Assembly: GCA_031213475.1 (NCBI GenBank)
Contig: JARUPZ010000034.1
Location: 1,942,501 to 2,006,500 of the forward strand
Length of the DNA stretch: 64,000 nt
Source of the DNA: Nereocystis luetkeana
Lineage: Eukaryota; Sar; Phaeophyceae; Laminariales; Laminariaceae
Direction: 5' to 3'
Shown here: positions 1 to 30,880 of the stretch, in pieces
Layout: every line of letters begins with the position of its first letter
How positions within the stretch are numbered: the stretch's first letter is position 1
The notes under the pieces: model-generated
The model's database searches: none
What the model was told of the DNA's origin: nothing
The model's input: only the letters and a program-made list of their open reading frames with translations
Translations under genes and position numbers: made by a program

Positions 1-3000
1 TAACGCATGTCTTCAGCGACAAGACGGGCACCCTGACTCAAAACGTCATGGACTTCCGGAAGTGCACTGTGGCTGGACGGGCGTACGGAAAGGGCGTTAC
101 CGAGATAGGACGGGCTGCGCTCGAGGTGATATTGTGTGCAACTCTAATGCTAAATGTATTGCCAATGTAGTACCTGGTATAGCTTTGGCCTCGCTTTACC
201 GTTCATGCCTGTTTTTTTTCCGCTGGTCTCACGTGAGCCGTTGATCTCGCTTCGCTTTTTACCGTTGGCCTCCTCGTGCTTAACGTTTTACCGTCCGTTT
301 TCGTTTTATTTTTTACCGTTGGCGCGACTTGTACCGTTCATATATGTGATATATGTGATGTTTTTGTTAGCGCTGTCCTCACTGCACCGTTGGCCTAGCT
401 TTTCCGTTGGCCTAGCTTCCCGTTGACCTTTTTTCCGTTGGGTTCACTGCACCGTTGGTTTCGCTTTCTCGCACCCGTTCCAGCTACAAGGGATGCAGCT
501 GTCGGCGGAGGAGCTGATGGCGGAGGAGATGGCCCAAGAGGTGTCGGCTCCCCACGTCAACTTCTACGACCCGACTCTGTTCCAAGACCTGCAGGCGGAG
601 GTGCGGACAGATTGATTGCTGCCACTTCGGGTTCCCTGTCCCTTTCGAGGGCTACTGACGACGTGGTCCAGCTTCTAAAAATGGTTGAAACATTCCACAC
701 CTCGGACAGATGGGACAGATCATACAGAGCGTTCCCACAGTTCATGATCTACATTTTTCAGGGCAGATACATAGATAGATGATGTGTATGATCTAGCTCA
801 TGTTGCCGGGTCAGGGCCGTATAGCCTGCACGATCTGTCAGCACACGTTTCCTGGGTTGGATCTGTCCTATAAGGCAGACCGTGCACAACCTCTCATGGC
901 GGCAGGTGAGGAACTGGATGATCTACTGTAAATAGATAGATGGATAGATCATAACTTGTCCGAGGTACGAAGTATTGTAGATGTTTGCCCTAGCAACCCT
1001 GACCCCCGACCGCCTCGGAAATTTCTTAGGAAACTCGGGATGAAGATGTAACGGGCAGTTACATAGTGTAGATTATCAACCGTTATATTATACCAATAAC
1101 TCGGAGCTGTGCCAAGTCGCACAAACTACTGCCCCCTCCCCCCCCCCCCCCCCCAACCAGTATATACGTGGTGTACATGTGTCTGACCACTGAAAGTCTT
1201 AGTCCTCCATATAGACTCACTCGTGTCTGAAAATATTGAAGCGAAGAGTCCCCCCCCCCCTTCCCCCGCCGCTGCAACGTCGTGCACTTGTGTCAGATGC
1301 GTTAGACGCAGTAGACGCAGTAGGTACAATACGTACAGCAGTAGAAACAGTAGGTCGGGCGTTCGCGTCAGTCCCCCGACCGATCTCAAAAGACGTTTCG
1401 GACGGCCCGTGCTACGGTTTCCAGGGGCGGCAATTGCTTCTCAGCATGAAACATTTCTTACTGACGGAGCTCCTCAAATGAGGTGCTAACAACATTCTAG
1501 TTTAATCCGATATATATTGTTCAAGCCTTACGCGTTATGGCACCTTACCCGCTCCTTATTGCGTGTCGGACACAGTTCAGAGCAGTAGACGCAACGTACA
1601 TACATACACCGGTCCAGTAGGTACATCAGTAGGTGTGGGATTTACAGTGTTTAGATACGCTAGCCGCAGCAGTAGACTCGGTAGGTACAAGCGGTAACAC
1701 CATGTATGATGCAATAGGTAGAGCGGTAGACACGGTGTGTTTATCTCCGCCGCTGAAATGTCGTGCATTTTGTGATGATTCGGACAGGTGGATGTCGGGG
1801 ACGGCGGAGGACAGCTGACGGACTTCATGACTCTTTTGGCCCTGTGCCACACGGTCATTCCGGAACGACCCAACGATACGGACGAGGTGAATTTTAGGTT
1901 GTGCTTGGGACGGGTGTTGCTTAGATAGCAGGCGGGGGGGGGGGGGGCGGGGGTACACTCGATAGGAGAGATGTACTCGATCTCATGCATATCATGCATG
2001 GCCGTAGTAGTCGTATGAGGGGGGGGAGGCACTCATTCGTTGCTGCTGGCCTCAGTCATTTGACCGTTGACCTCGCATCCATTTAGAGACAGCGGGGGGG
2101 AGGGGTTCATGTTGATGTATAAGCGGCGGAATGGGGGGTGCTGGTATATGGCGGGGGGGGGAAGGGGCTGATATTTGGGGGGGGGGGGGGTTGCTAAGAT
2201 TATAGGAATGGGGATGGTGGTGGTTCTGATAGACATGAATGGGCGTTTAGGTAGCCGCAGACTTGACCGTGTTTTCAATTCGGTGTTTTCGCCTTTTTGT
2301 GCAGCTCTCTCTTGGTCCATAGTGACGCGACTTTAGTTTCGGTCGAGTTTTTTTTTCTTCTTTTTTCTTCGTTTTTTCGATATACATTGGACGTACCGAC
2401 CTTCTCGATTTCCCGCCGTATATTCCGCTGACGATCTCGTGTACCGACCGTATCGCCTACTGACCGTTTGTCTTACCGACAGGAACCATCTCAGTAGTTA
2501 CCGACTACAGTGCGTCAAATACCGACCGCCTATTGCTATAAACCTCTCATCCATTGGACGTGTGGGTTACCGAACGTCGCGTCTTACCGGGCGTCGCTCC
2601 TACCGAAAATATCGCTCACCGAACGCGTCGTTTACCGAATGCATGACTTGCCGAAGGTATCGCTTACCGAACGCGTCGGTTACGGAACGCATCGCTCACA
2701 GAATAGATCGCTCGCCGAACGAAACAATCGCTTACATACCGACCGTCTCGCCTCACGAAAACAAAACTTTTTGCGAGACCCAGACAATAGGGGGGGGTAT
2801 ACCAAAACCAAGTAAAATCTAAATATGAAAAACAAAACTCGCCTTTCGTAATTTCCTCGGGAGAATCCCACTCGGCACCGTTTTTTTAATTATTGTTTTG
2901 ACCTTGGGAAGGCGCATAGGCCGTTTTCTCATTTTGTCGAGCGCCCTGCTTACCGACCGAATCGATTACCGACCGGCCGTCAGATCGTGCTGTCCGCCTC

Positions 3001-6000
3001 TAGCCCGGACGACGAGGCTCTGGTGCTGGGCGCCAAGTATTTTGGTGTGGAGTTCGCGGAGAGGATAGACACGAGCGCCGTCCTGCATAGGACTCCGGTG
3101 AGTGGCGTTTCGAAAATGCATATGTTGAGAGCACGAGATGCACGGGATAGTTGTTTACGTAACCGCCTGGTAAACGTAGAAATAAGCGGCGTGTTTCTCT
3201 CGGGTACGTTTCGTATGTACCAGGAAGGTGCCCCGAGGATGACACCTTGTGTTTGGTCCTTCCACCACTTTATTATAGCGTCACACGTCGGAGAGATCAT
3301 GATACATATCTTCAGATCATTCCCACAGTTCATGACCTAGATCCTTCAGGGCAGGTGAACTCCTGATCTGTATGATCTGTATGATCTAGCTCATGTTGCC
3401 GGGCGGGAGCAGTATAGTGTGCACTATCTGATGCATGTTTCCTGGGTTGGATATGTACTGTACAGATCCTACACATCATTTCTTAGCGGCGGGTTAGTAT
3501 CTATAGACGATATATCTGTAGATAGATAGATAGATCATGATCTGTTCAAGGTGTTGATGCATCCAGCGCACACCCAGCGGGTATGCGGGTCTGGGGCGGG
3601 CGCGTTAATTGTTGAACACATTTTTGGAGACGATGTGCTCATGCTGGTATTGAAGTTGTTGCTAATGTTAATGGTGATGTGCACCTGCTACCTGGTTGTA
3701 TTTCTCTTGATGCTGCGCGTTTAAATAATTATGTAACAGTGTTGATGGTCCTGGTCTATGTGCCCGCGACAATGGTGTTCCATGGGCTTTCTGGTGTGTT
3801 GTTGCTTTGATGCTGCTGATGATGATGGTGATGATGACGATGATGATGATGATGATGCTAGTATTAACCATGAGGATGATGATGGTGATGACGAGGGGGT
3901 TGTCGATGACGATGTTGGTGTTAACCCTTTTAGCACCGCAGTCCCATATGTGGGGACAAAGCACTCAAATTATAAGTAGTTTGTCCCCCAAACGGGACTA
4001 GGGTCCTAAAAGGGTAAGCGGATGGCAGTGTTTTCTATGACCCACGCTGCTGATGAGCTTGGTCCTGATCATTCGTTTTGCCCCTCCCGTCCAGATGCCG
4101 GCACCTTTGTCTCCCTCTGGCGTGGCGGTAAAGGAGGTTTACGAAGTGCTCAGGATACTCGGCTTTAACAGGTCAGTTTAAGTGCGTACCTGGTATTATT
4201 GTTACCATAAGGGTACAGTCAGTGCTGTGAACCGAAAAATGGAAGTGGTCTCGGTCGGTGCTCGGGTTTTTCGTCGAAAAGTCGGTCGGTTTCGGTTTCC
4301 CTTTTCTCTTTTTTCAAGACGAAAAGCCGAAACCGAATGTTTTTTCGGCGGAAAAACGAAAATGTCGGTCGGTTTCGGTAGTTTTTGTTGTTGTTGAAAA
4401 TATCCTACGCCGAGAATTTTGAGAAGCCGGTTTCCGAATTTTGAAAACCGACAGAAAACTGACCGAAGAAACGACGTTCGGTTAACGGTTCACGGTACTG
4501 GGTACAGTATGATACCGCCAACAAGCAACGCCTCCGTATTACGGGACACCGTAGTAATCAGGACCCGTCATTTACACCTAAACCTATATCTCCCAGTATT
4601 TTCGCTAAGCATATTTGGTCCTGATTACTCTGTTGCTTCGAAACACAATATTATGGAGGACAATATTAAATAGAACCTGCGGTACACATAAAATCCTATG
4701 TACTTCGCTGTTTTTATCAACAATATTTGGTCCTATTTACTATGGTCTCCCGTAATGGTAAATAATTGACACGTGAGGGGTGGGCGTAATTTGTTTCTGG
4801 GGCTCCCTCCTCCTGACTTGATTGTAGTATGGGAGCGGTTTACCTCGCCCAAACGCTGACATTGAAAAAAAAAAGGTGAAAGTGCAAAGCCCGGTGGCCT
4901 AGAGCAGTAGGTAAACAGCCAACAATATGCAAACAACTCAAATGTAGTTCCGACGATAAGGCATGCCTTGTTGGGTTAAAACGCGAATGTAATTCCTCAG
5001 TTATTCAAACGTTTTAGGACGACCGCATTCCCGTTTTGGGGACAAACTACTTGGAGTTTGAGTGGTTTGCCCCCAAAACGGGACTGCGGTTCTAAAGGGA
5101 TTAAGGGAGTAGGTTTAGCAGTCTGGGAGAAGGGATCTTTAGGGATGTTTTTTACTTGAAAAATGTGTAACCTGGTCTGAACTTCGGAATCGTCGTCCGC
5201 ATCTGAGAGATTTCCTGGTTCGATGCAAACTCGGCGTAGCCGCGTTTATGGCAAGTTTTGGCCCGTTTCGGCTGCGGTGTGAGGTTAGGGTTAGGGTTAG
5301 AGTCAGGAGCTGGGTTGGGTCTTCCCCCGTACCTTGATCCCAACAGGAACCAAAACATCCGAACAGCCTACCAACCTAAAGACCCCTTCTCCCAGATTGT
5401 TAAAGGTCGTCGATTAAGGAGCCGGCCCCGGCAATCATAACTATTGCCTCATGAGGTAACAAAAATAAAGCTCTCCCTATCGTGCTGTAAAAGCACACGC
5501 CATCTTTTTGCAAGGCCTAGAACCTTGTTGTGGCGCCCTTCTTGAAGTATATGCATGTACCTTGAGCATGGGCTATTATGATGTACCTGGTGTTGATTGA
5601 GCGCGTCGCTGAGCCCGATTTATTAGTCCGAATTTCTCAGCGCCCCTTCCCCCTCCCCCCCTAAAAAGAATGACCATTGTTGTTTTTTTGTTCGGTTATT
5701 TTATGACGCGTTCTACGATAGAGGTAGCACATTTCCGCTATTTTGTTTTCCGAATGACGGGGCTCCTTAACCCAAAATCGTCGGAAGGCCAATCTTGTTT
5801 CGAAAATGGGCTCTTTGGTGCACTTGGGCCATGGTAATATTTATCGGGGTGCACTATGGTTTTTGCTAGAGTGAGTGTTCGGGTCAGGTATGGAGCTCTT
5901 GAAGTGAGGAGACTCAGAAAAATAAGGGTGAACCTCTACTGTAGAACGCCTCTAATCAGTCGGGGACCTACACTGTGGCCAAGTGTCGAGGGTGTTTCTA

Positions 6001-9000
6001 TTAGGAGTAGGAACAGTGCTCCGTCTCGAAAGGGATGCGTGGTCAATGGTCGGATGACTTGAGGCAAGCAACAAAGAGTATGCCCCCCCCCCCCCCCCCC
6101 CCTCTAGGGTCATACGACTACGGCCATGCATGATAATGAGTACCCCCCCCCCCCCCCCCCTCGTCTGTGACCTCAACGCTGCTCACCGCCGCTGTGCGAT
6201 CGAACTCCACGCGTCCTCCTCCCCCTCGAAACCATGGTTGTTGGCAGCGTTCGGAAGAGGATGTCCGTGGTCGTGAGGGAGCCGAACGGAAAGGTGAAGG
6301 TCATGTCCAAGGGGGCCGATACCACCATGATCCCGCTGCTCAGGCGGGACACTCCCAAGGTAGGGGCTCGTTTTTTTTGTTTTTTTTTGTTTTTTTGTCG
6401 CTGCATTGTGAGTTGCGCGTGTCGTGTACCTGCTGGTGTTGGTGGTGCTGGTGGTGTTGGCGGTGGTGGTGGTGGTGGGTGTTGTGTGTTCTGGTGGAGG
6501 TCGGTGGTGGTGGTGGTGGTGGTGGTGTTGGGTGTTGGGTGTTCTGGTGGAGGTCGGTGGTGGTAGTGACTTGGAGTGTTGATCAATAGCAACAAGCGCA
6601 ACAAGGAAAGGCCGACAGTCCAAAAAAAATTAAACAGTGCTTGGTTCCGTTTTTCAGTTGTACTTATTTCCTTGCCTGCCGGGTATGTATATACATGCAT
6701 GCACGTACGGGCTGCTTCTTTGCCGGAACCGTTTTGGTTGTTAGTTTCGAGAAGAGGCGTACATAGCATCCGCAGCCCCCCCCCGAAGGGTTTGCTGATG
6801 TTTGTTTCTTCACCGTCTCATCTTTCTTCGTTTTCCCCCCCCTCGTTTTTTGTTTTTGTCACAATGGTTGTTTTGCCGCAGGAACTTTTGGACACAACCA
6901 TGGCACACCTGGAGGCGTTTGCCCTCGAAGGGTTGCGAACGCTGATGGTGGGCAGCAAGGAGATGACCGAAGAGGACTTCGAAGAATGGGAAGAGGTGAA
7001 AAACGCTACGATTTTAATAGAGATCTAGGAAGGTTTCCGAGGGTCAGCAGGTTGCGTTTTTTTTCTGACACAAGAGATACCGCATGTTTCGAAGTCTTGA
7101 TTTGTAGTTTGGAGTTTTTTTGTTGGTGTGAGAAAGACGAAGATGAGGCGGGAAGGATGAGGGGGGGGGGGGGGGAAGGAGAGAAGGCAGGGAGGAAACA
7201 AGACTCCGTCTCGAGTTCGTTGCCGCTTCTCACATGCTTGCTTCCCTCCCATCCCCTATGAAACCCCCGAAGTGCGCCCTCACGTGGCTAGGCGTATGTT
7301 GCGGCCGTCAACGATCCGGCCCCGCCTCCCTCCGTCGCCACCCCACCCCTAGTAACGCCTTATTTCGACCAGGCGTGCGATACAGTCCTCAACGACCTGA
7401 CCCCCCTCATCCCCTACCCCCCCTGCCGCCCTTCTTGCTTTGTCCTTGACTTCATTCACCATGCATACGATACGGCAATCAACTTTCTGAAGCACCCCTC
7501 GTCCCCTCCCTCCCCCCCACCCCCTATTACCACCTTGACTTGACCAGACACACGATTCGGCCATCAGTTAATCTAGCCACATCCCCTAGCGCCCCCCCCC
7601 CCCCCCCAACATGGCCTTAACCTGACCAGGCATACGAAACGGCCATCAGTTATCTAATCCCGTCCCCTATGCCCTGCCCCCTTCCCAATAACGCCTTCAC
7701 CACTACTAGGATATGATACGGCCATCAACCACAAAACGCCCCCCCCCCACCCCCACCCCCTACGACCCCCCTCAATAACGCCTCGACTTGCCCAGGCATA
7801 CGAAACGGCCGTCAATTGTCTAACCCAATCCCCTATCCCCCCCACCTTACCCCCCTTCCCCTCGCCCCTTACCAATAACGCCTTGACTTACCAGTCATAC
7901 GATATGACCATCAACGATATGACCCCCCCCCCCCCCCCTCCCATCCCCATTAACGCGTTCACCGTTGTAGGCATACGACGCAGCCATCAACGACCTATTG
8001 GAGGTGGCGGAGCAGCAGGCAGGGCGACCCAACAAGATCGATGACCTCATGGCGGACGCAGAACAGGTGTGCGGGTTTTGCTGGAGAGGTTTTGGCGGTT
8101 TTTGGCAACGGTATTTTTTTGTTAGATTGAAGACGCCTTGAGAACTAAACTCGCGTTTTCGAGGACACGCTACTTTGCTCACCGGGGGTACGTTGTATAC
8201 CACACCCCCTGACGTTTCGTGCCTCATAATCACTATGACGCCCCCAAGTTATCACCCGGGTGAATACCGTGACGTCGTGTCTACCACACACACCCTAGCG
8301 TGTCATGCCTCATAGTCAGAATGACGCCCGCCAGGTATCACCCGGGTGAAAACCGTGGCGTCGTGTAGACCGCGCCCCCTGACGTGTCATCCCTTATACT
8401 CAGTATGACGCCCCCAAGGTATCACCCGGTTGAACACCGTGACGTCGTGTCTACCACACCCCCTAGCGTGTCATGCCTCATAGTCAGAATGACGCCCCCA
8501 AGTTATCACCCGGGTGAAAACCGTGGCGTCGTGTATGCCACGCCCCCTGACGTGTCATGCCTCATACTCAGTATGACGCCCGCAAGGTATCACCCGGGTG
8601 ATATCCGTGTGGCGTCGTGACGTGATCGCATGCGCAGCACTCACACAGAGGTAGGTGTGGGAGGGTAATCACGGTATTCGAGGCCATCATCATGGAGGTG
8701 GAGGTGGTCTAGACCCCAACCAAACCCCCAACGCTGTGAGAAGCCAGATAATTAGAGTCTCACATTGCTAGGGGGCACCGCGATCGAAGACAGGCTGCAG
8801 ACGGCGTCTAAGTATTCTCCTCCCGCCGGCCCGTCCGCCCGTCCCCCCGTCCAACAAACGCCTTTACTTCTATGTGACTGCCGTTGTCTGCTTTTTGTTT
8901 TTCTTGGCCTGAACTTTTATTGGCATTAGGGTCTGACATTGCTCGGGGGTACCGCGATCGAGGACAAACTGCAGACGGGGGTCGGGGAGACTATCGAGAA

Positions 9001-12000
9001 GCTGGTTAGGGGGGGCATGGTGGTATGGGTCATCACGGGAGATAAGGAGGAGACCGCCATTAATATCGGGGTGGCGTGCCAGCTGCTGTGGGCGGAGGAC
9101 AGGATGGACCGGTGTATTATCAACACGAAGGTGCGTGTGATCGTTTATCGTTTCATATGACTGGCCCGTCTTTGTTGTTGTTGTTGTTGTCGTTGTTGTT
9201 GCTGTCTTGCTGCCTCCGCAGTTGTTGCTGCTTCCGCGGCGGCGGCGGCTGCTGCTGCTGCGTATTGTTTTTTTGTTTTTTCTGTTCTGTTTCTGCTGCG
9301 TATTGTTTTTTTTTGTTTTTGGTTCTTACTGTTGTACTTGTTTCTGCTGCCGCTGCTGCTTCTGCTTATGTGGCTGCTGCCGTGTGTCTTCTTCTTCTGT
9401 GCTTATTCCTGGTGCTGTTGTTGACTGCTGCTGCTACTTTTCGCTTATTCTTGTACTGTTTTGTTTCTTCAAAGAAAATTTGCTTTCTATACTGCTGCCG
9501 CCGCCGCCGCTGCTGCTGCTACTGCTCTTGACCCCGTTGTGGCATGATCGCTTACACCGCTGTCTCCGCAGTCATGCCCGACCCCGCTCCTGGTTAAGCA
9601 ACGCCTGGTGGACGAGTTCGAGCGTTACTCTCAGGACATGGCCTCGTGCAAGAAGGACGGAAGGTCGTGCAAGCCGCGGTGTCTGATCATAGACGGCGCG
9701 GCCTTTTCTCTCATCGAGGACGCTCCGCTCACCTCTCTGCATGGCCCCATCGTGAGTTGCTGTGGGAGAGATGACCTGGATGATCTGTACAAGACGGACA
9801 GATCAGCTCCTGTGTTGATGACCCGTACCTGGTACATGTTTTCACGATAAAATAATTTCGGGGTACTACTGTAGATCCGTAACTGGTGGATCGGATGCCC
9901 CTTTATTTTCCTAGATTATTCCGGCAGGTTGATTCCTGTTTTCCATTGTTGAGGACGCTCCGTTCTCCTTTCTGCATGGCTCCATCGTGAGTTGTACAGA
10001 TCCCTAGTTCATGATCTGTACATTTTCGTGATGTAGGTATACCTGGTATCAAATAGATGGATCAGATACATCACCGTTTTTCGTTCTAGATTTTTCGTGC
10101 GGGCGGATTCCTGCTTTCTCTCTCATGGAAGAGACCCCGCTGATGTCTTTTCTGCACAGCCCCATTGTGGGTGCCAACGAATATGGTGGTGGTGATGATG
10201 ATGGTGATACTGATGATGGCGATGGCGATGGCGATGGCGTTGGTGATGGTGATGATGGTGATGGCGGTGACGACAATCATTGCGCCGGCAGCGACAGCGA
10301 CATTTCGTGACATGTCGCGTACCTCTTGTGACAAAGATGAATGAATTCGCACTAGTTACGGTGGGGCATACATAGTAAATAGGACCTTCGGTGCACACAA
10401 ACACCTATATATTTACCTATTTTTACTAGCAACGTTTGGTCCTATTAACTATAGTCCCCCGTTGTACTACAGTAGCTCGAGTCATTACCAGGTGATTTGT
10501 TGCATCCCACCCCTGTACAAGTACACACTCGTACGTATGGTGTACCTATGGATATTCCTTATGACCTCATACGTACCCATGATGCCGACTGATTGATTGG
10601 ACAACACGAGCAGGAGGGCGAGCCCAGCCTCGCGAGCCTCGTGGCCGACCCTTCCATGCCGGACAAAGGAGCGACGGGCTCCTCCCGCGACCTTGCGCAA
10701 CGACAAAGCAGCACCGGAGAAGGAACACCTCACCGACGCCATAGCACAGGCGAAGAAACGCCCAACAGGTACTCGTATATACGCATCCAAATATCCTTGG
10801 GGCACCCCAGGGTATTCATACGAAAAATATGCATGTTTAGATGTTTACACCGCCCCTTTTGTGTTTGGAGACCCGGACAGGGGAGGAGGTGTACTAAATA
10901 CAACCAAGTGAAGAAAGTCCACAACCTCGAGCAGATCATGATCTGTTGATAGATCATCTAGTTCCTCGCCTGCCGCTGTGTGAGGTTGGGTGTGCAGGGT
11001 CTTCATATATTTGTGTTAGTAGTGCATATACGAACCAGGAAGCATGCGCTATAGATCATGCGGATTGTGCAGCTCCCAGCCGGCAACGGGAGCTAGATCA
11101 TACAGATCAGGAATAGATCTCCTGGTGTACTATTAATAGGCATAACCGAGTAAAACAAATCCACCACCTCGAACAGATCATCATCTGCTGATAGATCATC
11201 TAGCTGCTCGCCTGCCGTTGCGAGAGGTTGATTGTGCGGGATTTTTATGCAATACGGTACCTGCTAGTACCTGGTACACAGCTATTACGGGGGGCTATAT
11301 TAAATAGGACCTACGGTACACACAAAAACCTATATATTTCGCTATTTTTACTAACAATATTTGATCCTATTTACTCTGCTCCCCCGTAGTAGATCATGCA
11401 GACTGTACGAACGGGTTCCCACCCGGCAACATGAACTAGGTCATAGAATATCGATAATTGATATATCTGCCTTGAAATATCTGGTAGGTCATGAGGTGGG
11501 AATGATCTGTAGATGATCTGTATGATCGGTAGATGATCTGTGTGAGGTGTGGTACGTTTGCCCTCCTAGTTTTCCGTGGCTGAGCAATCGCGTTTTTTGC
11601 TGCAGACCGTTCGTTGCCTCGGCCGTATGAATACGTATATAGGCGTTGATGAATATGTGCAGGCGTTTTTCGCTTCATCTTATATTTGCTACACGGGGAT
11701 CAACATGCCCTTACGTAGGCCCGTGCGGTAGCAATAGAGGACACCTCCTGAAAAACAGGAAAGCTGGACCAAGCTGAATTTACTGTGTTTTTGATAATGG
11801 GTGCTATATTTCTGCACTAACCTCAGTGTAACGACTCCTTAGTTTCGTTTTTGTCTTAGCCTTATTGCTCGCTGTGGACCCCCAAAACCAAGCGTGGCCC
11901 TGCTCATGTTTTATACGCAAAAATCCGCATCCCCGAGCATCATTTTGATGCGGGCCCCCTTAAGCAAAGTGCACCCCCTCTGCATCGTGGCGCGGCTCAT

Positions 12001-15000
12001 CTTTGTACGTTCGTACTGCTGAACGGTACCTACTGTTCTACCTACTGCTCCGCCTACTGTATTACCTACTGCTCCACCTACTGTTCTACCTACTGCTCCA
12101 CGTACTGTTCTACCTACTGCTCCACCTACTGTTCTACCTACTGCTCCACCTACTGTTTTACCTACTGCGCACACAGGTTAAATTCCGCGTCCCGTAGCGC
12201 GAGGTGGAGGAGGGAGCGCCCGGCGAGCACCCACCCGCGACACTCCAGCGACGCCGGCAGCCTCGGGTCGAATCTCGACGCCGCCGGAGTCGAAACCGCC
12301 GGCACCGAAACGGCTACCATGGTTGCCTCGCGCGGCTCCACTCCCGCCACCGGCGCGGCCGAAGAGAGACGAAACGGTCACCGCAACAGCAGTGGGAGTT
12401 ATATGACCCCCTTGGGCGTTTCTCCGGTCGGGGATGAGAAGCAGGAAAATGGGGAGAAGGAGGGTGATGGTTGGAGGGTTCGGACCACCTCTGCCGCGGA
12501 ATTGGGGGGGGAGGAAGGGGGGGAGGGTGGGGGTGGGGGCGATGAGGAGAAAGGGATGCAGGGGAAAGAGGTGACCGAGGTTGTGCTGGATGCTGGGGAT
12601 GCGTTGACAGCAAAGGAGGCGTTACTGCAGGTGTGTTGTGGTATTGTGTTATATGGTATTGTATTTTATGGTATGGTATGGCATGGGATGGGATGCGTTG
12701 ACAGCAAAAGAGGCGTTTTTTTTTTTTTTTTAATCATCGCTTTTACTTTGCAGCCTAACTCGTAGGAGATTTTACCCTCAACAATATTCTGGACAAGCCG
12801 TGGTCACAGATGTCTACCCTTCTCCCCCCCGGTACGTGCCTTTTTTTTTTGTCGCGCATAGGGTTCAGCATTCCCACTGCTCGTCGATTTTCATCGAACG
12901 TAGCTAACTCACGCTCTCGCGCTTTCCGCCATCCTTTTTCTTATGCAAGAAAAAGCCCCTACGAGCATGCACTCGGTGAGACTTGTAACCCACGAAATTG
13001 ATCTTGATGGGCTGGACCACCTACCAAGCCACCGGGGACGGTTGCTGTTACACGGTATGGTAGTGTACGATATGGTGTGGTATGGCATGCGTTGACCGCA
13101 AATGAGGTTTTCCTGAAGATGTCGCATGCTGTTGTATGATATAGTGTAGTATTGTAGGATGCGGTATGGTATGGTATTGTGTGATACGGGATGGGATCGT
13201 ATGATATTGTGTGGTAGGACATGTGTTGACCGCGAAGGAGGCGTTCCTGCAGGTGTTGTATGGTGTTGTACGATATGGTATGGCGTTGTTTGATATGGGG
13301 TGAGGTTTGTTGACGGAGACGGCAGCATTGCTGTATGTGGGGGTGTGGTATGGTATGCGTGTGGTATGGTATGGTATGGCGTTGCATAATATGTAAATTG
13401 TAGTATGGTTTGGTGTGGTGTGGAGTTTTGGTGGGGTTATGCTGTAGTGTGGTATGTGGCATTGTGGTATGGTATGGTATGATATTTTTTTGGTATGATT
13501 GGAATGGTGTGGTACGGGAGGTCTTGTAGAAGAAGGAGGCTTTGCTGCAGGTGGTGGTGCGGTGTGGTGTGGTATTGTGGCGTGATGTGGTATGGTAAAG
13601 GTATACCAGTAGTGTGGCGTGGTTTGGTGTGGTATTATGGTTGGGTGTGTTGGAGTGTGGTATGTGGTATGGTATTGTGGTGTGGTATGGTATCGTGTTG
13701 TATGATATGGCATGGTATTCATATGGGGTGTAAATATGGCGAAGGAGGCTTTGCTCCAGGTGGGGTGTGGTGTGGTGTGGTATGGTATGGAATATATTTT
13801 GGTATGGTATGGTATCGGATGTATTGACCGCGAAGGATGATTTGCTCCAGGTGTGAGATGGTATGGTATGGTGTTACACGTTATGGTGTGGTGTGGTATG
13901 TTTTGGTAGTTGGTATGGTATCGTATGGTCGTTGTATGTGATGTGATGTGATGGGATGTTATGGACCGCGGTGGAGGCTTTTCTTCAGGCGAACTGCGGC
14001 GAGAAGGAGAGAGAGATAAAAACCACTCGCAAAAAAAACACTCCCTTTTTTGCTACGAAGAAAGTATTGAATGGAGTTGCCTTGTTTGCGTTTGTCGGAC
14101 GCATGACATGGGGTTCCCTATGGCTGCGTGGCGTTTTCCCTTCAACCACCTGCAAATGCAAGCGATTTCACCTATAACCCCCAACCCCACCCCTGCCCTT
14201 ACCCACCCATCCTGTCCTTCTCTACGTGTGAACAAAAAGTTTGCCAGCGTGTGTCAGGCTTTTGTTGGATGTCGCATGTCCCCGGATCAAAAACGCCAAC
14301 TTGTTCACCTGATCAAGGACAACAACCCGGGAGCCCGGACGTTGGCCGTTGGGGACGGGGCAAACGATGTGCCCATGATTCAAGCGGCCCACGTTGGCGT
14401 TGGTGGGTTTCCATTTTGTTTTGCATGTTTTTACCATTTCTTGTTGTATTATTTTTCGTTTTGTATATTTAGCTGCAGCAGCTCGATGAACCCAATACAT
14501 AGTGTGTGTTGTGTGTGTGAGTCTGTGCGCAAACACTAACCAACATCTCGCTGAAACCTAGCTATTCGGCAGGGGTGCGTGATGTTGTTGCTTGGTTGCT
14601 TGAATCGTTAGACTGCTGCAGTTCGTTTTTTGCATTTCTTTTTGCCCTTTTCGGTGTTGTTCAGTTATAGAGCTCGTCTGTTTTTGGTTGGAGCTCTGAC
14701 TTCAGTCTTAATCTGTACTCGCTGCCAACCTCCCGCCCCAACTCCCAGCCGTTGGGGATGGTTCTGTTCGGGGAAGCAAAAGTAAATGCGTTTTTTTTTG
14801 TTCGGCTTGGTTCGGTTCCTATGAGTGGAAACGGCCATAAACCTTACTCCTTTCTCGAGGCCTGAACATGGCGACAAAATATACTACATGATCGTGCAAC
14901 CTCGGAAAAGTATCTGAATCGTTTCCCAAATATATATATGGATTTCGCCTTCCTCATATACGGACGGAATGTATTTCCTGCATGGGGCCATGTAAAACCC

Positions 15001-18000
15001 GTCGTACGCGCGATCGAAGTATCACACACAGCTTGCAAAGATGAGTTTCACCGAAATCCTGCTGTAGATCTCACCGATGTTTTTCTTTGACTTTATAAAT
15101 GCCATGGTCCGTATGAGGGCTACAACGAAAGGCCGACGCACATGTATACCGATGCGTTTTCTCGCTCTCTTGCTTGGCTGTGTATCGCGCTCTCTTGACT
15201 TTTTGGCACTCGTCTCTTTGCTGTTCGCGGTTTGAATGATCTGCTTGTGGTTCTTTTGTTTCACCACGGACTCTCAGTGGTTTTCGTCTCTCTTGCGTTC
15301 CCCTCTCTGACGACTGCTGATCCTCTCTCCCTCCCCCCCCCCCCCGCCCGCCCGGCCTCCCGCCCCCCCCCCGCCCTCTCTCCTTTTCTCTCCCTCCCTC
15401 CCTCCCTCTCTCCTTATCCCTCCCTATTCCTCCATTCCTCCTTCTCCCTCCGTCCTTCTCCCTTTCTCCTCCTCCCTTCGCCCCCCCCCCCCCCCCCCCC
15501 CCTCTCTCCTGCTCCTCCTCCCCCCCCCTCTCCTCTCTCTCTCCTCTTCTCTTCCTTCTCTCTTACTCCGATGCGCCAAAACGTATGGGAGGCAGGCATC
15601 AGCGGACAAGAAGGTCTCCAGGCCGTAAACGCTAGCGATTTCTCCCTGGCGCAGTTCCGATTCCTTCAAAAGCTGCTGCTGTGTCACGGCAGGTACGTCC
15701 CCGTGATTTATCGCCGCGGTACTTTTTAGTTCCTTCGGATTTCGTTTTTTCCGCCGCCCCATCTATCAAGCTTCGCCCTCTCATAACTCTCTTCAACCAT
15801 TGGGTCGCATAGCAAGCACTTCTCTCCACCCCCATCCTTTGTGTTCGTTTCTTGTTTCGCTTCGGTTCGCTTCAGTTTGGTTTTCGGTTCAGTTCCTTCG
15901 GTTATTTTTGTTGCTTTCCATGTTATTACGGGGGACCATAGTTAATAGGTCCTATGGTATACATGAAAACCTATATATTCAACCATTTTTACGAACAGTA
16001 TTTGGTCCTATTAACTATGGTCCCCCGTAAATAGTCGGTTCGTCTCGTTTCAGTTTGCATCGTTTTGTCTCCTTTCGTTATGTTTCGCTGCGGTTCGGTT
16101 CGGTTTTTGTGTTTTCGTGTTTTTGTGTTTTTGTTTCTTGTGCGGGTTTTTGCAGGTTCAACTACCGACGGATGAGCTTCGCGTCGAGCTACCTCTTCTA
16201 CAAGTCTGTCAGCTGGGCTGTTCCGCTCTTCCTCTATGCCTTCTGGAACGGTAAGTCTTTTTCGTTCACGCGCCCTCTTAAATGTCGTATCACGAAGGAC
16301 CATATTAAATAGGACCTACGGCACACACAAAACCCTATATATTTCGCTATTTTTACTAACAATACTTGGTCCTATTTACTATGGTCCCCCGTAGAATTTG
16401 TAGTTGGGGTACTGAACGATTAGGCTTGTTGTCAACACGCATTCTAATGTTTTGTGCTCCTGTTAGTACATACCTGGAAGCAGTATTCAGGGTGGGCATA
16501 TGTAATAATCAGGAACCACTACGGTGTGTGATTACAGGGGGGTACATGGGTTCTGCTTCCGTCGTGGGTTCTGATTACTATGTGTTCCTGAGTATTACTA
16601 TGTATGACTATGTTTACTCTGTATTACTATGTATCACCATGTTACTATGTATTACTATTACGGCGGGCCATAGCAAATAGGACCAAATATTGTTAGTAAA
16701 AAGAGCGAAACATATAGGTTTTAGTGTGTACCGTAGGTCCTATTTACTATGGTCCCCCGTAATAACTGGTACCAGGTATGTATCACCATGTTACTGTTGC
16801 CTGCTGAGTGATTTCCTGGCGTAACGAGGCCAGGTTTTCCTCCTGCATGTCATCGTTGGTTCGATGTTGGCGAAGATTTACACCGCCCAGTATATTTTTG
16901 GTCTCGTCGCTGCTCTGAAAAACTACTACCAGGTATTAGTATTAATATTACGGAGGACCATAGTTAATAGGACCAAATATTGTTAGTAAAAAGGGTTATA
17001 TTTATAGGTTTTTATGTACACCATAGGTCCTCCCCCGTAATATTAATATTCATATTCATAATAACGGCAGCTACAAATATACATTATATTTAAGGCGTGA
17101 TATCTGGGGGTAGCACTTGTTGGACATTTTTTGTTCGTTTGTTTTACTTTTGAGGGAAAATTGGCGATGAAAAAAAATGTGACGATTTTAGCAACCATTG
17201 TGGCCGCTGACGACGTGATGTGAGGGGGGGGGGGGGGGTGATACAATGGTTCGTGTCTCGCCCCTATGAAAATGCAGGTATTAATAGTCGTGCGGCACGG
17301 GCGCAATATACCTGGTATGTAACTACTATTTACGGGGGACCATAGCAAACAGGACCAACTATTTTTAGTAAAAATAGGGAAATATATAGGTTGTTGAGTT
17401 ACCGTAGTGTCTATTATGGCCCACAGTGACATTATTGCCCATACTTTTGGGCCCCCTTAAGCTGCTGCTCCTATTACGGGGGACCATAGTTAATAGGACC
17501 TATGGTCTACACAAAACCCGACATATTTACCTATTTTTACTAACAATATTTGGTCCTATTTACTATGGCCCCCCGTAATAGAAGGTTTGGCAACTGACAA
17601 GACGAAAATTCTCGTGGTTTTTTGTCCCTACGGTAATTTCGTCACCTGAAAAGGGTTATTAGCCCAATAACTGCTGAAACGCCAAAATCGTGTTTGTTTT
17701 TACAATTCCTTTTCTTGTTTGTGTGATTTTTTTGTACCTTTTGGGGTTTTGGGATATTGTTCAGTGTCGTGCGATTTTTGCACTTTTGTGGCTTTTCTCA
17801 AAATGTGATTTTGGGTACACGCTACAGCTGCAGGTATTTAGGTATACAGCTCTGCAAGAGGGGAAGGAGCCTCTAAAAAAAATCGGAGTTTCCCCTGCCA
17901 CGGAACGCCTCATTTGTTATCGCCTGTTTTGTCCTCGCTCGATATGTGTACCCTATGTATATACCTCGAGAGCAGGTTTGAGCGGGCAAGTTTTCTACGA

Positions 18001-21000
18001 CTTCATCAACTCGACGATGTGGGCCCTCCTGTACACGAGCCTTCCCATCGTCCTGCTCGGCATCTACGACATGGACGTCCTTCCGGCGACCGCGCTGCGC
18101 TACCCTTGGCTGTACCGCAACGGGGTGGATGACGAGCTTCTCACCAAGAGCTTCTTTTGGGGTTGGATTGCGCAGGTTGGAAGCGTTTGTGGGTGGGGTA
18201 GGGGGTAGGGGGGGGGGGGGGTGAGTTCGGAATGGAATTGACGGGGAGGGGGGGGGGGGGAGGGGGGGGGGGCGTACTCATTTTTTGCTGGTTTTTAGTC
18301 ATTTGAACATTGACCACGCATCCCTTTCGAGACGGAGCGGGGAGGGGGGAGGGGTGGGGAGGGGTGGGGAGGGGGGAAGAGGGGGTGTTTGTTCTTTTTA
18401 ATTGTACACAAGTACTTTTGTTGTTGTTGTTGTTGTTGTTGTTCGTTAGCTTTAGCTTTCTTCTCCCTCGTCCTTTCCTTGCTTTCCTTGCTTTCCCTCT
18501 TTGTATCCCCTGTTTTTCTTTTCTTTTCCCGTGATCCGTTGAACAGGGGGTGCTGGAGTCGTGCTGGGTGACGATACCAATCATGCTGTTACAGCGGGGG
18601 GGGTCTGTGATCAACGGGGAGACCCCGGCTGTGTTGGCGTTTGGCCAGGCTGCCTTCCAGGCGATGACCCTCGTCGTCAACATGAAGATACTGTTCGTGC
18701 AGAGGGTGAGAAAGATAACGCCTTCCACGCATGGGACAGGCAGACCGCAAGAACCTGCTGTGCTGTAGATCGTCTGTTAGATGCTGGCAGTATGACGATT
18801 GAGATGATCTACAGTAGATCCTATTATTGTAATGACACACTGTGTGGGGTCCATCCCTGGAAATATGGCGTGCTACTGTAGATCAGGCGATGAAATATCT
18901 TGTTCATGCGGAGCGTGAGAGAGGGAGAGAGAGAGAGGGAGGGGGGGGGGGGGGGGGGCACAGGGGGCACACCGCCACCATATCGAGGCCGTGCCAAGCT
19001 GTAAAATAACAGTCCTGTCCCCCTCCCTCCCTCCCTCCCTCTCTCCCTCCGTTTCCTCCGCCGGGGACGGACTGCAGCGATGGCACTGGGTGGAAGCTTT
19101 GGCTCTCACAGTGTCCACGGGTCTACTGTTCGGCATGTCCTGGTTCCTGAACGTCAGCACCATGATCCTCAGCCTAGACTGGGAGTGGTTCGGGGTGAGC
19201 TGATACATGTATGATGCGATTGTGGCTTTTTTGCATTTTCGCGGTGCGTGTGAGCCTTACACCCGTTCCCAAGTGGCCACGACGGAAAAAGCTCAAATAT
19301 ATCGACGCTTTCAGCCATATGCAAGCTATTAATAGCTCGCCTCGCAAGTAGTTCCCAATAGAATGCAGTCCTCGCCCTTCATGTGGCTCGCCGAATAGCT
19401 CATCGCGCTTCGCGCTTGGTACAAGCAACATTCGTCTGGTCGGCAAAAATCCGACGTGCTCCGTCCCGGTTCCCGGCGTAGTAGGGATGCGAGGGTCTAT
19501 GATTGTACGACTACGGCCATGCATGATACTGAACACACGCACCCCGTGCGCGCGCTCCGTCTCTAAGGAATGCGCGGTTACTGATCAAATGTCTAAGGCA
19601 AGAAACGAAGTGAGTATCCCCCCCTCCCGTCCCCCCCGTCCGTTCCGTCTTCTCCCATGCTTCCTTGGCGTGGCTTGTCGTGGCTCGCTTCTTGTCGTGG
19701 GCCGGAACAGATGCAAACGGCGCTGTTCAAAGACCCGAACTACTGGGCGGTGACGCTCTTCGCGGTCGTCGGAGTCCTGATGCGCGATGTTGCTTGGAAG
19801 TCGTACCATCGCTGGTAGGTCACGTAGTACCAGGTATCGTGTCAGGCAGTGAGTAGGGTGCGTGTGTTCTCCACATGCAAACGGTTCTTTCTGCCCGTCG
19901 ACATCCAGCACAACCAACGTCCGTGCCGATTCTTCAATCCTGTTAAGAGATATATGCAAGGTGTCGTGGTCATAAAAGTATGACACACAGCAGGTATAGC
20001 CCCCTTGGAATTTTGAAAAAAAAAAAATGCCTGCGACAGTAATGAGAACACACGAAGACTCACTTTTTGGGGGGGCTGGAGGAACGCTAAGAAACTTGGA
20101 TTAGTAAATCGTGCTAACCCGCTGAGCGTTACGCTGAAACCCCACTATTTTACGGGGGACCATAGTAAATAGGACCAAATATTGCTAGCAAAAATAGCGA
20201 AATACATTGGTTTTTGTGTGTGCCGTAGGTCCTATTTATATGGTCCTCCGTAATAGTAGGCTATGCTCTAGGTGTGCGGAGTAGTGAACCGGTTGCCGCT
20301 GTAGTGCCGGTGACGCTGGCTGTGGCGCTTTACCGGCGCTACATACCTGTAGGGACCACCGCTGTAGTACTCCACCGCTCTTGGCCGAGAATATAGTACT
20401 CGTACCTCGTTGGGTTCTGATAAGAATGAAACGGGCCGTCTTTTGTCTCGCGTTCTTTTTTTTTTTAAAGCGTGTCGTCGTCCTTGCGGTGGGTACACAT
20501 TTTTTTGTTTTCTTGTCTTGCTTTTTTTGCTTTTTTCCCCGGTTTTGTTTTTTTCGTTTTTTTCGTTTTTTTTTTTTTGTTCTCAGGTGGATTCGTAAAA
20601 ATAATGATACCGTAAATGTTGAAAGCTCAACACGCTTCCACTGTCACAGCACGTACTCGTATCGCGTGTCAATTCAGACCACCATCGCTTGCGCTTGCAA
20701 CAACCAGAACCAGCAGCTGCTGCTGCTGCTGCTGCTGCTGCTACCTCGGGGCGCGCGAGCATTGTTGACACCGACCCCCTGTTTTTGTTTCTGACGGCTG
20801 GTACCGACACAGGTGGCACCCCAAGCTTCACCACCTCCTCGTCGAAATGGAAAAAGGGCACCTCAAGGACATCGATCTACCCCACTCGCTGCGCAAAAGC
20901 TACTCAATCCAAGAAGTCATCCAAGTGAGAGAGGGGGGGGTGACGCGGTAAACAGTAAGGGTGCACGGGTGAACCTTTGGAAATTTCTGAGTCTCGTTCA

Positions 21001-22713
21001 TCACTTGAGGAGCTATACGTCTCTCACCCAAAAACTGCCTTTGGCTGTTTTAGTGCCGCACTGTACACGCAGTGCCATACTACGCTCTCGACGGAAATAT
21101 AAGGAGTACTGTAAGTCTTGCCGTATTTATGTCTTGAAGCTCCCTTTAGTGCCGCACTGTACGGTTATATGTATACTATCGTTCTACAGTAATTCCAAGT
21201 AATTCGTCCCCTTGCTTTTTTTGCCTTCGAGGGGTAAAAAAGTGTCTATGCACACTCCCAACCCTTTTATTACGGGGGGCCATAGTAAACAGGACCGAAT
21301 ATTGTCAGTAAAAATAGGTAGATATTTAGGTTTTTGTGTGCACCGTAGGTCCTATTTACTATGGTCCCCCATAACAGCAGTAACTTTTTAGTAACACTGC
21401 AGTCCCGTTTTGAGGACAAACCACTCAAATGAGAAGTAGTTTTCCCCCAGAACGGGACTGCCGCCCTAAAAGGCTCAAGCCGATGAGCGAGCAACCATTG
21501 CACCCCATGGCCTACTACACCTGTTCTGTAGTGGAAAGTATGGTGAAAATCGCACACGATGTTGGCCGGTTAATTCCTCAGCCGGTGAGGAAGGCAGGAA
21601 GTCCCCATCAGGCAGAAATAATATTTCCAAAAAAGTGTCACAGCAGTAAGAGTGTCGGCGCCACTGTATATTGTGCCGGTATAATGTGTGCGTCAGCCAA
21701 CAATAGCGGCACTATAAATAGCGCCAACCGGCACTATTTACTCCGCACACTGCCTCACTGGTTGTTCCCATCTGTCTAAGCCAAGCTATTCAATTCCACC
21801 GGCTTTATATATAGCGGGCAGTCGGCACTACTTAGTCAACCGGCACTATAGCACTATTACGGGGGGGCATAGTTAATAGGACCAAATATTGTTGGTAGAA
21901 ATGGTGAAATATATAGGTGTTTATGTATACCACAGGTCCTATTAACTATGGCCCCCCGTATTAGAGCACTATAGAGGGACTGGACCACGATTACAGGGGG
22001 GGGGGCATATTAAATAGGACAAAATGTTGTTGGTAAAAATAGGTAAATATAAGGGGTTTATTACGGGGGACCATAGTTAACAGGACCAAATATTGTTAGT
22101 AAAAATGGTGAAACATATAGGTTTTTATGTATACCATAGGTCCTGTTAACTATGGTCCCCCGTATTAGTGTCAACCGTAGGTCCTATTTACTGTGCCCCC
22201 CCCCCCCCCCGTATACTACTGTGGTGAGTGTTCCCCTGTCATCGTGTACTGCGAGTAGGGGTAGGCACTCTATGTCATGCATGGGTGTAGTCGCATGACT
22301 ATGGACCCTATCATTAATAGGGGCATCCTCACATTGCCGGGACGGAGCGTGTCGGATTTCAACCGACCAGGCAGACGTTGCTTGCTCCAAAGCGCGAAGC
22401 GCCGCCGTGAGGTGTTTGGCGAGTCGCGTGAAGGGTTGGCTGCGTCCTCTGCTACAGTAGCAAACCGTGTGTGAGGCGTGGGCTTTATGGAACGACAGCA
22501 TCGAAATGTGTTTTTGTTTGTTTTTCCGGTGTGGCCACTTCCCGAAGACAGCGGGAGGGCTGACTGGGGTAGTTTCTGGAGATATCGCGGCGTGTCTGTA
22601 AAACTATGTTTTGGCTCATCAACCGATAAAAATATACAACACAATTTAGAAATACTGTACACCCATTTTTTTCGGGACAGTCTACAGTAGTTGAAACTCG
22701 TGTGGGGTCAGTT

Positions 22714-22754
<41 letters not shown>

Positions 22755-25700
22755 GTACGGTTTTCGTGTGTGTGTCTGTGTGTGTTCCAACTGTCGCGGT
22801 TGTTGTCCTCACGAAAATACCCGTGATGTGCACCCTGGTATTCTATAGGGGGGGCGAATGCTCCCCCACCTACACGCCTGAGCCCCTCCCCCTCACCCTT
22901 CCACCACCCCACCTCCAACTCCCCCCCCACCCCCCCCCCCCCCTCACCTCCCAACTTTCCCCCACCCCCCCCTCCAACGCGCCCACCCACGCACCCACTC
23001 AATACGCGCAGCGTTCGGTATCGGGGGCGGTAATCACCCTCGGGAGTTTGAGGTTAATCAGGGAAGGGAGTCATAGCGTTGACTGTGATCACCCTTGGCG
23101 TGGACTCTTATCTGACATCCCCGCGACCCCCCCCCCCCCCGTTCCCGCCTCCTCCTTAATACGTAGGAGGACACTTCTTCACGCATGAGCAGGATGAGGA
23201 TGCAGTCCCTCCAGCGCATGGAAAGCCACAGGGACGCCGTTCTCCAAGCTCTGGGCGCCTCGGGGTCGAGCAGGGCCTACTCCGTCACCTCCCCCACCTA
23301 CGGAACGGAGGGCTACACAACGATGCGGTACCTCGACGCGGCGGGGGCGGGGGGAAGGCCTAGGAGCGCGGGCGGCAGGCTGACCTCTTTGTCTAATCTC
23401 TTCGAGGGGTTGAACAAGTCTCCGATGACTCAGGTGGGGTGCTCTTGCCATGCATGGCCGTCTTCGTATGGGGGGTGTGCTCATGCCATGCATGGTCGTA
23501 GTTGTGTGAACATAGACCCTTGCATCCCTACAATTGCCGGGACGGAGCATGTCGGGTTTTCATCGACCAGGCGGACATTGCTTGCACCAAGCGCGAAGCG
23601 CCGTGAGGTGTCCGGCGAGTCGCATGAAGGGTAAGGGCTAAAGGGGTGTACTCATATCATGCATGGCTGTAGTAGTCGTATATCCATAGGCCCTCGCATC
23701 CCTACAATGCCGGGACGAAACCCGTCGTGATTTCACCGACCATGTGGGGGGGGGGGGGAGGGGGGGTAGGTGTTGGGGGACCTCTAACTTTCCCTCTTCA
23801 TCGTGTACGCCCCCCCCCCCCCCCCCGCCGATACTCTCTCATCTTTTTTTTGTATCATTTCACGTTATTTTATTTTATTTTTCGTCCGTACCTTTTCTCG
23901 GTCTCGCTTTGCATGGCCGCAAACAGGAAAACATGTACCCTGGTATATTTTTTTCGTGTGGGCGGCCTAATAATTATCTGATATTCTGGCAATATAGTAT
24001 TCGGAGCTTTTAGTTTTTGGATTCGTATTTTGGATTCGGAACTTGTTTTTTGGATATGAAGTTTGGAGTTTAGATTCGGAATTTGTTTTGTGGATTTCCG
24101 GAAATTGGTTTTATACCCCCCGCTTCGTTTTTCTGTTTTTCTATTACGTGGAACCATGGTAAAAATAGGTGAATATATAGGTTTTTGTGTGTACTATAGG
24201 TCCTGTTTACTATGGTCCCCCGTAATAAATACTTGTTTTGTTTCCAAATGTACGTACACTAGCGTACAGGTTGTTTTTTTGTCTTTTTGTGTACGACTTC
24301 GATACGTTTTTGTTTCGTTTTTGTGAAAATAAAGATGTATTTATTTTCTGATTTTTTTTCGGCGATCTTTTGCTTGTACGGCCACGCCCTCAGGGGGCTC
24401 TACTGAGGAAGGAGCGCAGCGCGGGCTCTTCCCCGGTGCCTACCGTTTCTCTCCCACGCGGCGGCAGCGGTAGCATCGTCCCGGGCCTGCCTCGCGCGAT
24501 GCGTGCTCGGCAGAGGTCGGGGGACGTGGAGCAGGAGGAGGCGGCAGGGGTGGCGAGGGTAGGGTTCGCGTTCAGCCATGACCCTCGCGCTTCGGCACAC
24601 GAGATCAAGATGATCATGCGAAACCGGTGAGCTTGGCGGGGGTGGGACGGGTGGGAACGGTGGGGTGGGCATCCTGTGTGTTGGAACTTGGAAGCCTTAT
24701 TGCGGTCTTCAGGAGGATGAGCAGGGGGGGGGGGGGGGGTGTACTCGATAGGAGAGATGTACTCGATCTCATGCATGGCCGTAGTCGTATGACCATAGAC
24801 CCTCGCATCCCTACAATGCCGGGACGGAGCATGTCGGGTTTTCACCGACCAGGCAGACATTGCTTGCACCAAGCGCGAAGCGCCGTGAGGTGTCTGGCGA
24901 GTCGCATGAAGGTTGAGGCGGACGTGCATAAGGACGACAGCTTCAATGAGTTGATTTAATTTCCGGTGTAGGCTTTTCCAGAGGCAGCAATGGGAGTACT
25001 ATGTAACTGCCTCTTGGGTGCCTTACCTTGAACACTACGTGATACGATCATTCCCAATTGTGCGGAGTAAAGGTTCTTTACCTCGCACGAATGATCTATA
25101 ACTCGACAACCAGCTGTGGGCGACCGCCCAGAAAAAAAATAACGGTACCCTGGCTGTCTAGCTCACGTAGTGAGCGGCATGTTTTACAGTGCCGTTGCCA
25201 ACCGACGCCAACCCAACCTATAAAAAATAGGGGGAGGGGGGGGGGAGTAAAGGAACAACTGTTAATGGTAAACAACCCCCCCTCTCCCCTCCGTCTTTGG
25301 TCTTGGGAGTGGAAGAGTACCGCACCGCCTTGAGGCGATAAAAAGCAAAGATAAGACGTGCGATAAGATCACGCACGGGTGATGATAGGATAATACGCCC
25401 CTCTGTGGAAAAAATTCCAAAGCTGATTCTGTTTCGACAACAGGGAGAGTGTAAAGTGGAGACGCCGAGCGACGCGTCTACGTAAAACATCTCCACAATA
25501 TATCTCTAAATAAATGAAATATTGGCCTACGGTGTTCGTTGTGTGCGCGTGCCCCCCCCCCCCCCCCCCCTTTTTTTTTGGAGATAATCTGCTGTCGAAA
25601 GTGTCTCCCGCAGGGGAGGCGTTTTTTTGTTATCTTGGGGTTAATACTGTTACTATTACGAGGGACCATAGTTAATAGGACCAAGTATTGTTAGTAGAAA

Positions 25701-30454: not shown

Positions 30455-30880
30455 TTTTGGTACCCGAGTACCCCAGAGCATATACTCTATTGGTACCTGG
30501 GTACCCTAGAGTATATATACACTCTATTGGTACCTGGGTACCCTAGAGTATACATACACTCTATTGGTACCCGGGTACCCCAGAGTATATATACCCTATT
30601 GGTACCCGGGTACCCCAGGGTATATACCCTATTGGTACCCGGGTACCCCAGAGTGTATACCCTATTGGTACCCGGGTACCCAGAGTATATACCCTATTGG
30701 TACCCGGGTACCCAGAGTATATACCCTATTGGTACCCGGGTACCCCGAGTATATACTCTATTGGTACCCGGGTACCCAGAGTATATACTCTGTTGGTACC
30801 CGGGTACCCCAGACTATAGCATTTATTTCATACCCTATTGGTACCCGGGCACCCCAGAGTATATTCGCTACAAATAAGCA
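30455..30880. repeat. 33-bp minisatellite built on GGTACCCGGGTACC palindrome
   Basis: Twelve units of ATTGGTACCCGGGTACCCCA GAGTATATACCCT. The core GGTACCCGGGTACC is a perfect 14-bp palindrome in most units. The period is a multiple of three, so one frame reads a tyrosine-rich peptide repeat (YWYPGTPEYIP); no other coding evidence. Confidence 0.92.

Follow-up and report, generated by a model that had tools for sequence, protein, structure and literature searches.

In the potato RdRp gene, a tandem duplication across an intron-exon boundary has been outlined as the origin of an extra spliced intron (PMC4974935), and duplication across a splice boundary is thus an already documented kind of event. 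In the AGGT model, as summarized in a review of intron gain (PMC3443670), exon sequence is duplicated and a new intron is made. In Cryptococcus, the multiplication of whole introns together with repeats has been described as polymorphic, and slippage, unequal exchange or conversion have been invoked (PMC2395259). In addition, intron sliding and tandem duplication have been treated in an account of near-intron pairs in Drosophila (PMC2891723). Among titles and abstract openings in the open-licence literature, we found no report that introns genome-wide carry arrays of exon-edge copies, which is weak evidence of absence.

Here, we describe copies of exon edges in the introns of a gene of Nereocystis luetkeana, located in a window of 64,000 nucleotides (C34:1942501-2006500) of the 465-Mb genome, which is assembled in 1987 contigs. 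As in the outlined potato case (PMC4974935), the duplication took in the last part of an intron and the first part of an exon, together with acceptor-side splicing signals, but the spare copies here look absorbed into one longer intron, and several events, with up to eight copies, are found in one gene. Tandem duplication of sequence with splice-like motifs is shared with the AGGT model as reviewed (PMC3443670), although the unit at this locus includes intron and no new intron was seen. The locus resembles the Cryptococcus case as described (PMC2395259) in that repeat expansion in a gene alters intron content, whereas exon edges are copied into introns here rather than whole introns multiplied. 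As in the Drosophila account (PMC2891723), where duplication is one cause considered, introns are shifted by short distances between relatives; unlike there, the introns compared belong to paralogs within a single genome, two of them are displaced, and the link of this shift with the copies is only a candidate one.

Gene model and genomic context

The window harbored the 3' part of a gene whose 23 exons join as a single frame of 1447 aa when exon 21 starts at 23206 (Table 1). The acceptor of exon 21 at 23167, which was used for the tests, also leaves the frame open and adds 13 residues (1460 residues). The best relative of known structure was the yeast flippase DRS2 (E 4.7e-115), and, judged by its translated sequence, the gene is a P4-ATPase (lipid flippase). 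Its 5' part seems to be located upstream of the window, since exons were predicted there in loci L047-L048 with translations that, in our judgement, resemble the missing 5' half of the P4-ATPase. A first model, which had a 24th exon at 12766-12831, was discarded on account of its 15 stops, and a single frame resulted when exon 12 was spliced to 14240.

A genome search with 177 bases of one exon returned a single match, and divergence from the exon ranged from about 4 to 42% among the intronic copies (exon-like parts only); therefore, assembly duplication is an unlikely source of the copies. When the genome was searched with the family PF00005, none of the 20 matches supplied usable exons; 17 were alike and located on small contigs. 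The seventeen contigs (C53, C56, C71, C75, C80, and others) carried an identical ABC ATPase match of equal score, and our guess is that they are redundant organelle contigs with a plastid sufC-like gene.

Copies of exon edges in adjacent introns

For every exon edge, 30 nt of exon and 10 nt of intron were aligned locally with the remainder of the adjacent intron, and the best score was compared with those from 200 dinucleotide-preserving shuffles per edge and from the 21 other introns of the gene. Five of the 44 edges outscored each of their shuffles as well as the 21 remaining introns, where 0.2 would be expected by chance: the acceptors of introns 7 (score 32) and 8 (54), and the donors of introns 10 (60), 12 (52), and 17 (33). 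The next-ranked edge was the acceptor of intron 11 (p 0.025). The five introns are identical to those in which the original prediction, made from the letters of the window, had placed copies of their own exon edges. All five matches were direct, with scores of 32-60 vs 15-21 for reverse-complement matches in the same introns. These results indicate that an exon edge with its adjoining intron sequence was copied into the neighbouring intron beyond chance in five cases. As had also been proposed, the duplications lengthen introns, because the copied units contain intron sequence and the spare copies lie inside existing introns. Head-to-tail arrays of the intronic minisatellite type were present in introns 7, 8, 11, and 12. 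The array of intron 7 is contiguous; introns 8 and 17 each hold a single edge copy about 175-210 bases off, with no repeat detected between.

Table 1. Positions of the gene, its exon-edge copies and the repeats in the window.
Feature	Position	Strand	Basis or remark
P4-ATPase gene, 3' part	3..28106	+	open frame, DRS2-like; 23 exons and 22 introns; stop 28106
CCGTT-type repeats, intron 1	387..483	+	repeat search; end 4 nt before the acceptor, stay outside the exon
Intron 7	6996..7970	+	gene model
Tandem array of ~85-base unit, crossing the intron 7 acceptor into exon 8	7241..7996	+	edge test, self-BLAST
Boundary copies, intron 7	7292, 7373, 7463, 7548, 7630, 7710, 7796, 7895	+	true acceptor before 7971
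Intron 8	8067-8929	+	gene model
84/168-base tandem array, intron 8	8194..8619	+	repeat search, self-BLAST; wholly intronic, no edge touched
Copy of exon 9 start with acceptor (8925-8978), intron 8	8751..8804	+	54 bases, 87% identical
First copy of exon 10 end with donor, intron 10	9939..10022	+	source 9704-9791; 75% over 91 columns
Second copy of exon 10 end with donor, intron 10	10113..10172	+	72%
12/24-base array, intron 11	12027..12168	+	repeat search; ends 8-9 nt before the acceptor, stays outside the exon
Exon 12 end copy, youngest-looking, intron 12	12690..12717	+	27/28 identical, without donor
Older array with seven more exon 12 end copies, intron 12	13043..13989	+	self-BLAST, edge comparison
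Weak copy of exon 17 end with donor, intron 17	18890..18923	+	26/33; edge test, absent from self-BLAST list
Palindromic element	15926-16033 and 19 further intervals		68 occurrences over 264 kb

Many units of the intron 7 array carry a C-rich tract, an AG and the exon start, and the AG was kept in seven of the eight upstream boundary copies. The identity of these copies showed no gradient with distance from the exon (p 0.40), and all eight lacked the exon's C at base 9 of their exon-like portion, six of them having T. The array would therefore fit a single boundary crossing with later amplification within the intron. Eight copies of the end of exon 12, of at least two ages, were present in intron 12; their identity dropped from 27/28 beside the exon to 64-88% farther off (rho -0.67, p 0.07), a gradient that hints at repeated crossings. 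The notion of a process recurrent in one gene holds in that boundaries were crossed more than once, whereas intron 7 gave no support to each copy being a separate event.

The repeats of introns 1, 3, and 11, which had been described as running up to the acceptor, do end within 4, 11, and 9 nt of it, respectively. However, none of their motifs occurred in the first 40 nt of the following exon; the exon is not entered, and these repeats are therefore not boundary duplications.

Dispersed elements and other repeats

A palindromic element of about 105 bases, with ends like GGGGGACCATAGT and ACTATGGTCCCCCGTAA, was found about once per 4 kb, often in introns, and looks like a MITE. Downstream of the gene, at 30457-30818, we observed a 32-base tandem array of about 11 copies (GGTACCCGGGTACCCC...), which is itself partly palindromic. 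The abundance of the small palindromic element might raise the idea that the exon-edge copies are pieces of a dispersed transposable element. We regard this origin as very improbable, because the edge copies match the coding sequence of the window gene and the signal persisted in 5/44 edges with the palindromic element masked.

Decoy splice sites and divergence of the copies

The splice sites were scored with leave-one-out site models. As stated in the original prediction, the copies leave decoy sites, with the retained AG in intron 7 and a clear GT in place in four of the eight copies in intron 12. Three of the seven AG-bearing decoys in intron 7 scored above the real acceptor, one of the four decoy donors in intron 12 scored above the real donor, and one donor copy in intron 10 tied with the real donor of that intron. 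The real acceptor was outscored by some other AG in 20 of the 22 introns and the real donor by some other GT in 14 of the 22, so that the arrays add to a general surplus of cryptic sites.

Differences between exon and copy amounted to 37/211, 33/216, and 88/210 at codon positions 1, 2, and 3, respectively, compared with 129/414 in the intronic flanks of 13 copies; these counts are non-independent, as array copies share ancestry. Relative to the flank, change was about half as frequent at positions 1 and 2 and somewhat more frequent at position 3, which is roughly what would be expected of an intronic copy that drifts freely and an exon that drifts synonymously. The third-position excess (0.42 vs 0.16) was slightly above the twofold ceiling of the simplest neutral-copy model; repeat counting of related copies may explain the remainder, and the C-rich flank may understate divergence.

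The concentration of differences at third positions (88/210 vs 70/427 at positions 1 and 2), together with the AG retained in intron 7 and decoys that score equal to the real site, is also what working alternative exons or splice sites under selection would produce. Nevertheless, the third-position excess is mostly expected from the synonymous change of the true exon, recounted for each copy. Five of the eight steps between the boundary positions of intron 7 are not multiples of three, and a clear donor is missing in four of the eight copies of intron 12. Selection on functional copies is therefore very unlikely.

Splice boundaries compared with other DNA

For comparison, 40-base pieces were taken every 200 bases outside the gene, and each was searched against the next 1 kb with the same test. 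The comparison DNA, which lies on four contigs and includes coding exons, consisted of the window beyond the gene, 60 kb flanking the window and 140 kb surrounding four paralogs, and is accordingly not a random sample of the genome. The common small palindromic element was masked. Removal of low-complexity pieces left 994 (of 1069) from outside the gene and 619 (of 687) from its introns. Local copies within 1 kb were found for 76/994 of the pieces outside the gene (7.6%) and for 90/619 of those from the interiors of the window gene's introns. The edges of the window gene had a local copy in 5/44 cases (11.4%), with or without masking. In an earlier run without filter or mask, the outside and intron pieces gave 52/436 and 84/490, respectively.

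Within the introns of the window gene, local copies did not increase toward the boundary in the three distance classes used: they were found for 7/63 pieces at less than 100 bases from the edge, 31/208 at 100-300 bases, and 52/348 beyond. The interiors of exons gave 0/98 (unmasked), which is in line with short units and with the loss of copies harmful to the mRNA.

Two further sets of edges were examined. First, spliced alignment of the protein with the loci of the four paralogs, done by a script, yielded 38 homology-supported exons; 70 of their 76 edges were tested, those poorly aligned or near a sequence end being omitted. Three of the 70 paralog edges had a local copy, in a set that, unlike the others, was neither masked for the palindromic element nor filtered for low complexity, and one of the three (the donor at C16b 18673) is doubtful because it borders a G-rich run. 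Second, 66 exons from a simple gene finder, after strand choice and filters, gave local copies at 8/109 edges. This is a soft set, located outside the window gene and the accepted paralog exons, which certainly includes false exons: for the window gene, from which it had been trained in part, 19 of the 20 confident exons of the gene finder overlapped real ones, but a further 13 confident exons lay over that gene in antisense. At least one of the eight matches belongs to a 1098-base 'exon' whose translation, judged by eye, resembles reverse transcriptase, and some others look like exons of P4-ATPases, among them those of the window gene's 5' part. The reverse transcriptase-like predicted open frame lies at L046:942-2039 on the minus strand, and a local copy of its end was observed in the DNA that follows.

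All edges pooled had local copies in 16/223 cases (7.2%), in sets that differ in masking and exon detection and have individual rates of 4% to 11%, compared with 76/994 outside the gene (Fisher p 0.89). The edges of the window gene alone did not differ from the outside pieces (p 0.38), a comparison that with n=44 is still compatible with a twofold enrichment, or from the paralog edges (5/44 vs 3/70, p 0.26). Therefore, an excess of exon-edge copies elsewhere in the genome, as originally predicted, was present relative to shuffles and absent relative to the local-duplication rate of the sampled DNA. Since other sampled DNA is copied locally about as often as the edges, shuffled introns are the wrong null.

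These rates bear on boundary-directed intron growth, in which splice boundaries (e.g., through R-loops or nucleosome edges at exon ends) would recurrently provoke duplication. Five of the 22 introns of one gene are affected and the copies in intron 12 are of at least two ages, as this explanation would suggest; however, the three edge sets taken together did not exceed the sampled DNA, the copies were not commoner near edges (7/63), and the gradient was absent in intron 7. We consider such targeting quite improbable, and the claim that the boundary is a special site of the process was not borne out by any comparison of the edges (5/44, 3/70, and 8/109) with the DNA outside the gene. Rather than being targeted, splice boundaries seem simply not to hinder a general process of duplication. 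The window locus is nevertheless somewhat special in local copying, though not at its boundaries, as its introns were richer in local copies than the outside DNA (90/619 vs 76/994, p 1.5e-5), which may be why several copies were met in one gene.

Origin and position of the introns

Tandem genomic duplication is, according to the review cited above (PMC3443670), an accepted route of intron gain, and the original prediction named the duplication of AGGT-containing exon segments as a known route to new introns. In comparisons of intron ends with the opposite exon for the 22 introns, only 1/44 fell below p 0.02, which is the chance level. The single match, between the end of intron 7 and the end of exon 7 (p 0.002), had a score of just 18. 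Moreover, the repeated units hold intron sequence on one side of the boundary, so that the introns are older than the duplications. The creation of these introns from AGGT-containing exon segments is thus very unlikely, and this part of the prediction was not supported.

Among 19 well-placed introns in the four paralogs, only one, in C26, matched a position in the window gene exactly, that of intron 3; a weaker exact match, at intron 18 in C16a, has three of eight residues alike on either side. In the best-scoring paralog (C26, 3448001-3488000), introns lie 12 and 9 nt downstream of introns 7 and 8, respectively, along the coding sequence and in the same phase. Including intron 3, 3/10 placed introns of C26 were within 12 nt in phase, where 0.64 would be expected (p 0.02, uncorrected for four paralogs), and the other paralogs gave 1/4 in C18 (near intron 8, p 0.25), 0/4, and 0/1. 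Introns 7 and 8, which are displaced relative to C26, are the two introns with acceptor-side copies. These positions, which concern few introns and mainly one paralog, are suggestive of intron sliding. It is a long shot, offered with little confidence, that intron sliding in the N. luetkeana genome draws its raw material from boundary-crossing duplications, with the splice position shifting by whole codons. If it were true, arrays of complete, partly intact acceptors or donors would let the splice position shift.

Proposed mechanism and implications

Given the copies themselves, their frequency in the DNA sampled and the way differences are spread over codon positions, it is likely that the copies arose by local, mostly direct duplication that is blind to splice boundaries, and that boundary-crossing copies are tolerated as intron. 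The genome would undergo frequent short-range duplication, mainly direct and mainly within a few hundred bases, and the process would make no distinction between a splice boundary and other DNA. When a unit crosses a donor, the first (original, upstream) donor could still end the exon, and when it crosses an acceptor, the last (original, downstream) acceptor could still start it. Boundary-crossing copies would survive because the outer splice site, which presumably remains in use, can still give a normal mRNA. The spare copy would thereby turn into intron, and tolerance, not preference, would place exon edges in introns. Spare copies would then decay neutrally, sometimes after further amplification inside the intron, while the true exon would change mainly at synonymous sites.

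Among the 994 outside pieces, with masked elements taken out, direct local copies outnumbered inverted ones (76 vs 30), and half of the direct copies started within 121 bases. Mostly direct and close copies are as expected of slippage or unequal exchange, which we infer as the mechanism of duplication. Inverted local copies also exceeded chance (30/994) after masking of the common element. Local copying is thus not all tandem, and the inverted copies need some other source.

Taken together, these results correct a tempting inference: exon-edge copies far exceed a shuffled null, yet other sampled DNA is equally copied locally. Any genome-wide scan for intron growth at boundaries should therefore be judged against the rate of local duplication in the genome itself, because sampled DNA elsewhere is copied as often. 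In addition, the copies may serve as fossils of exon edges in N. luetkeana, in which the codon-position pattern separates the drift of the copy from the synonymous drift of the exon.
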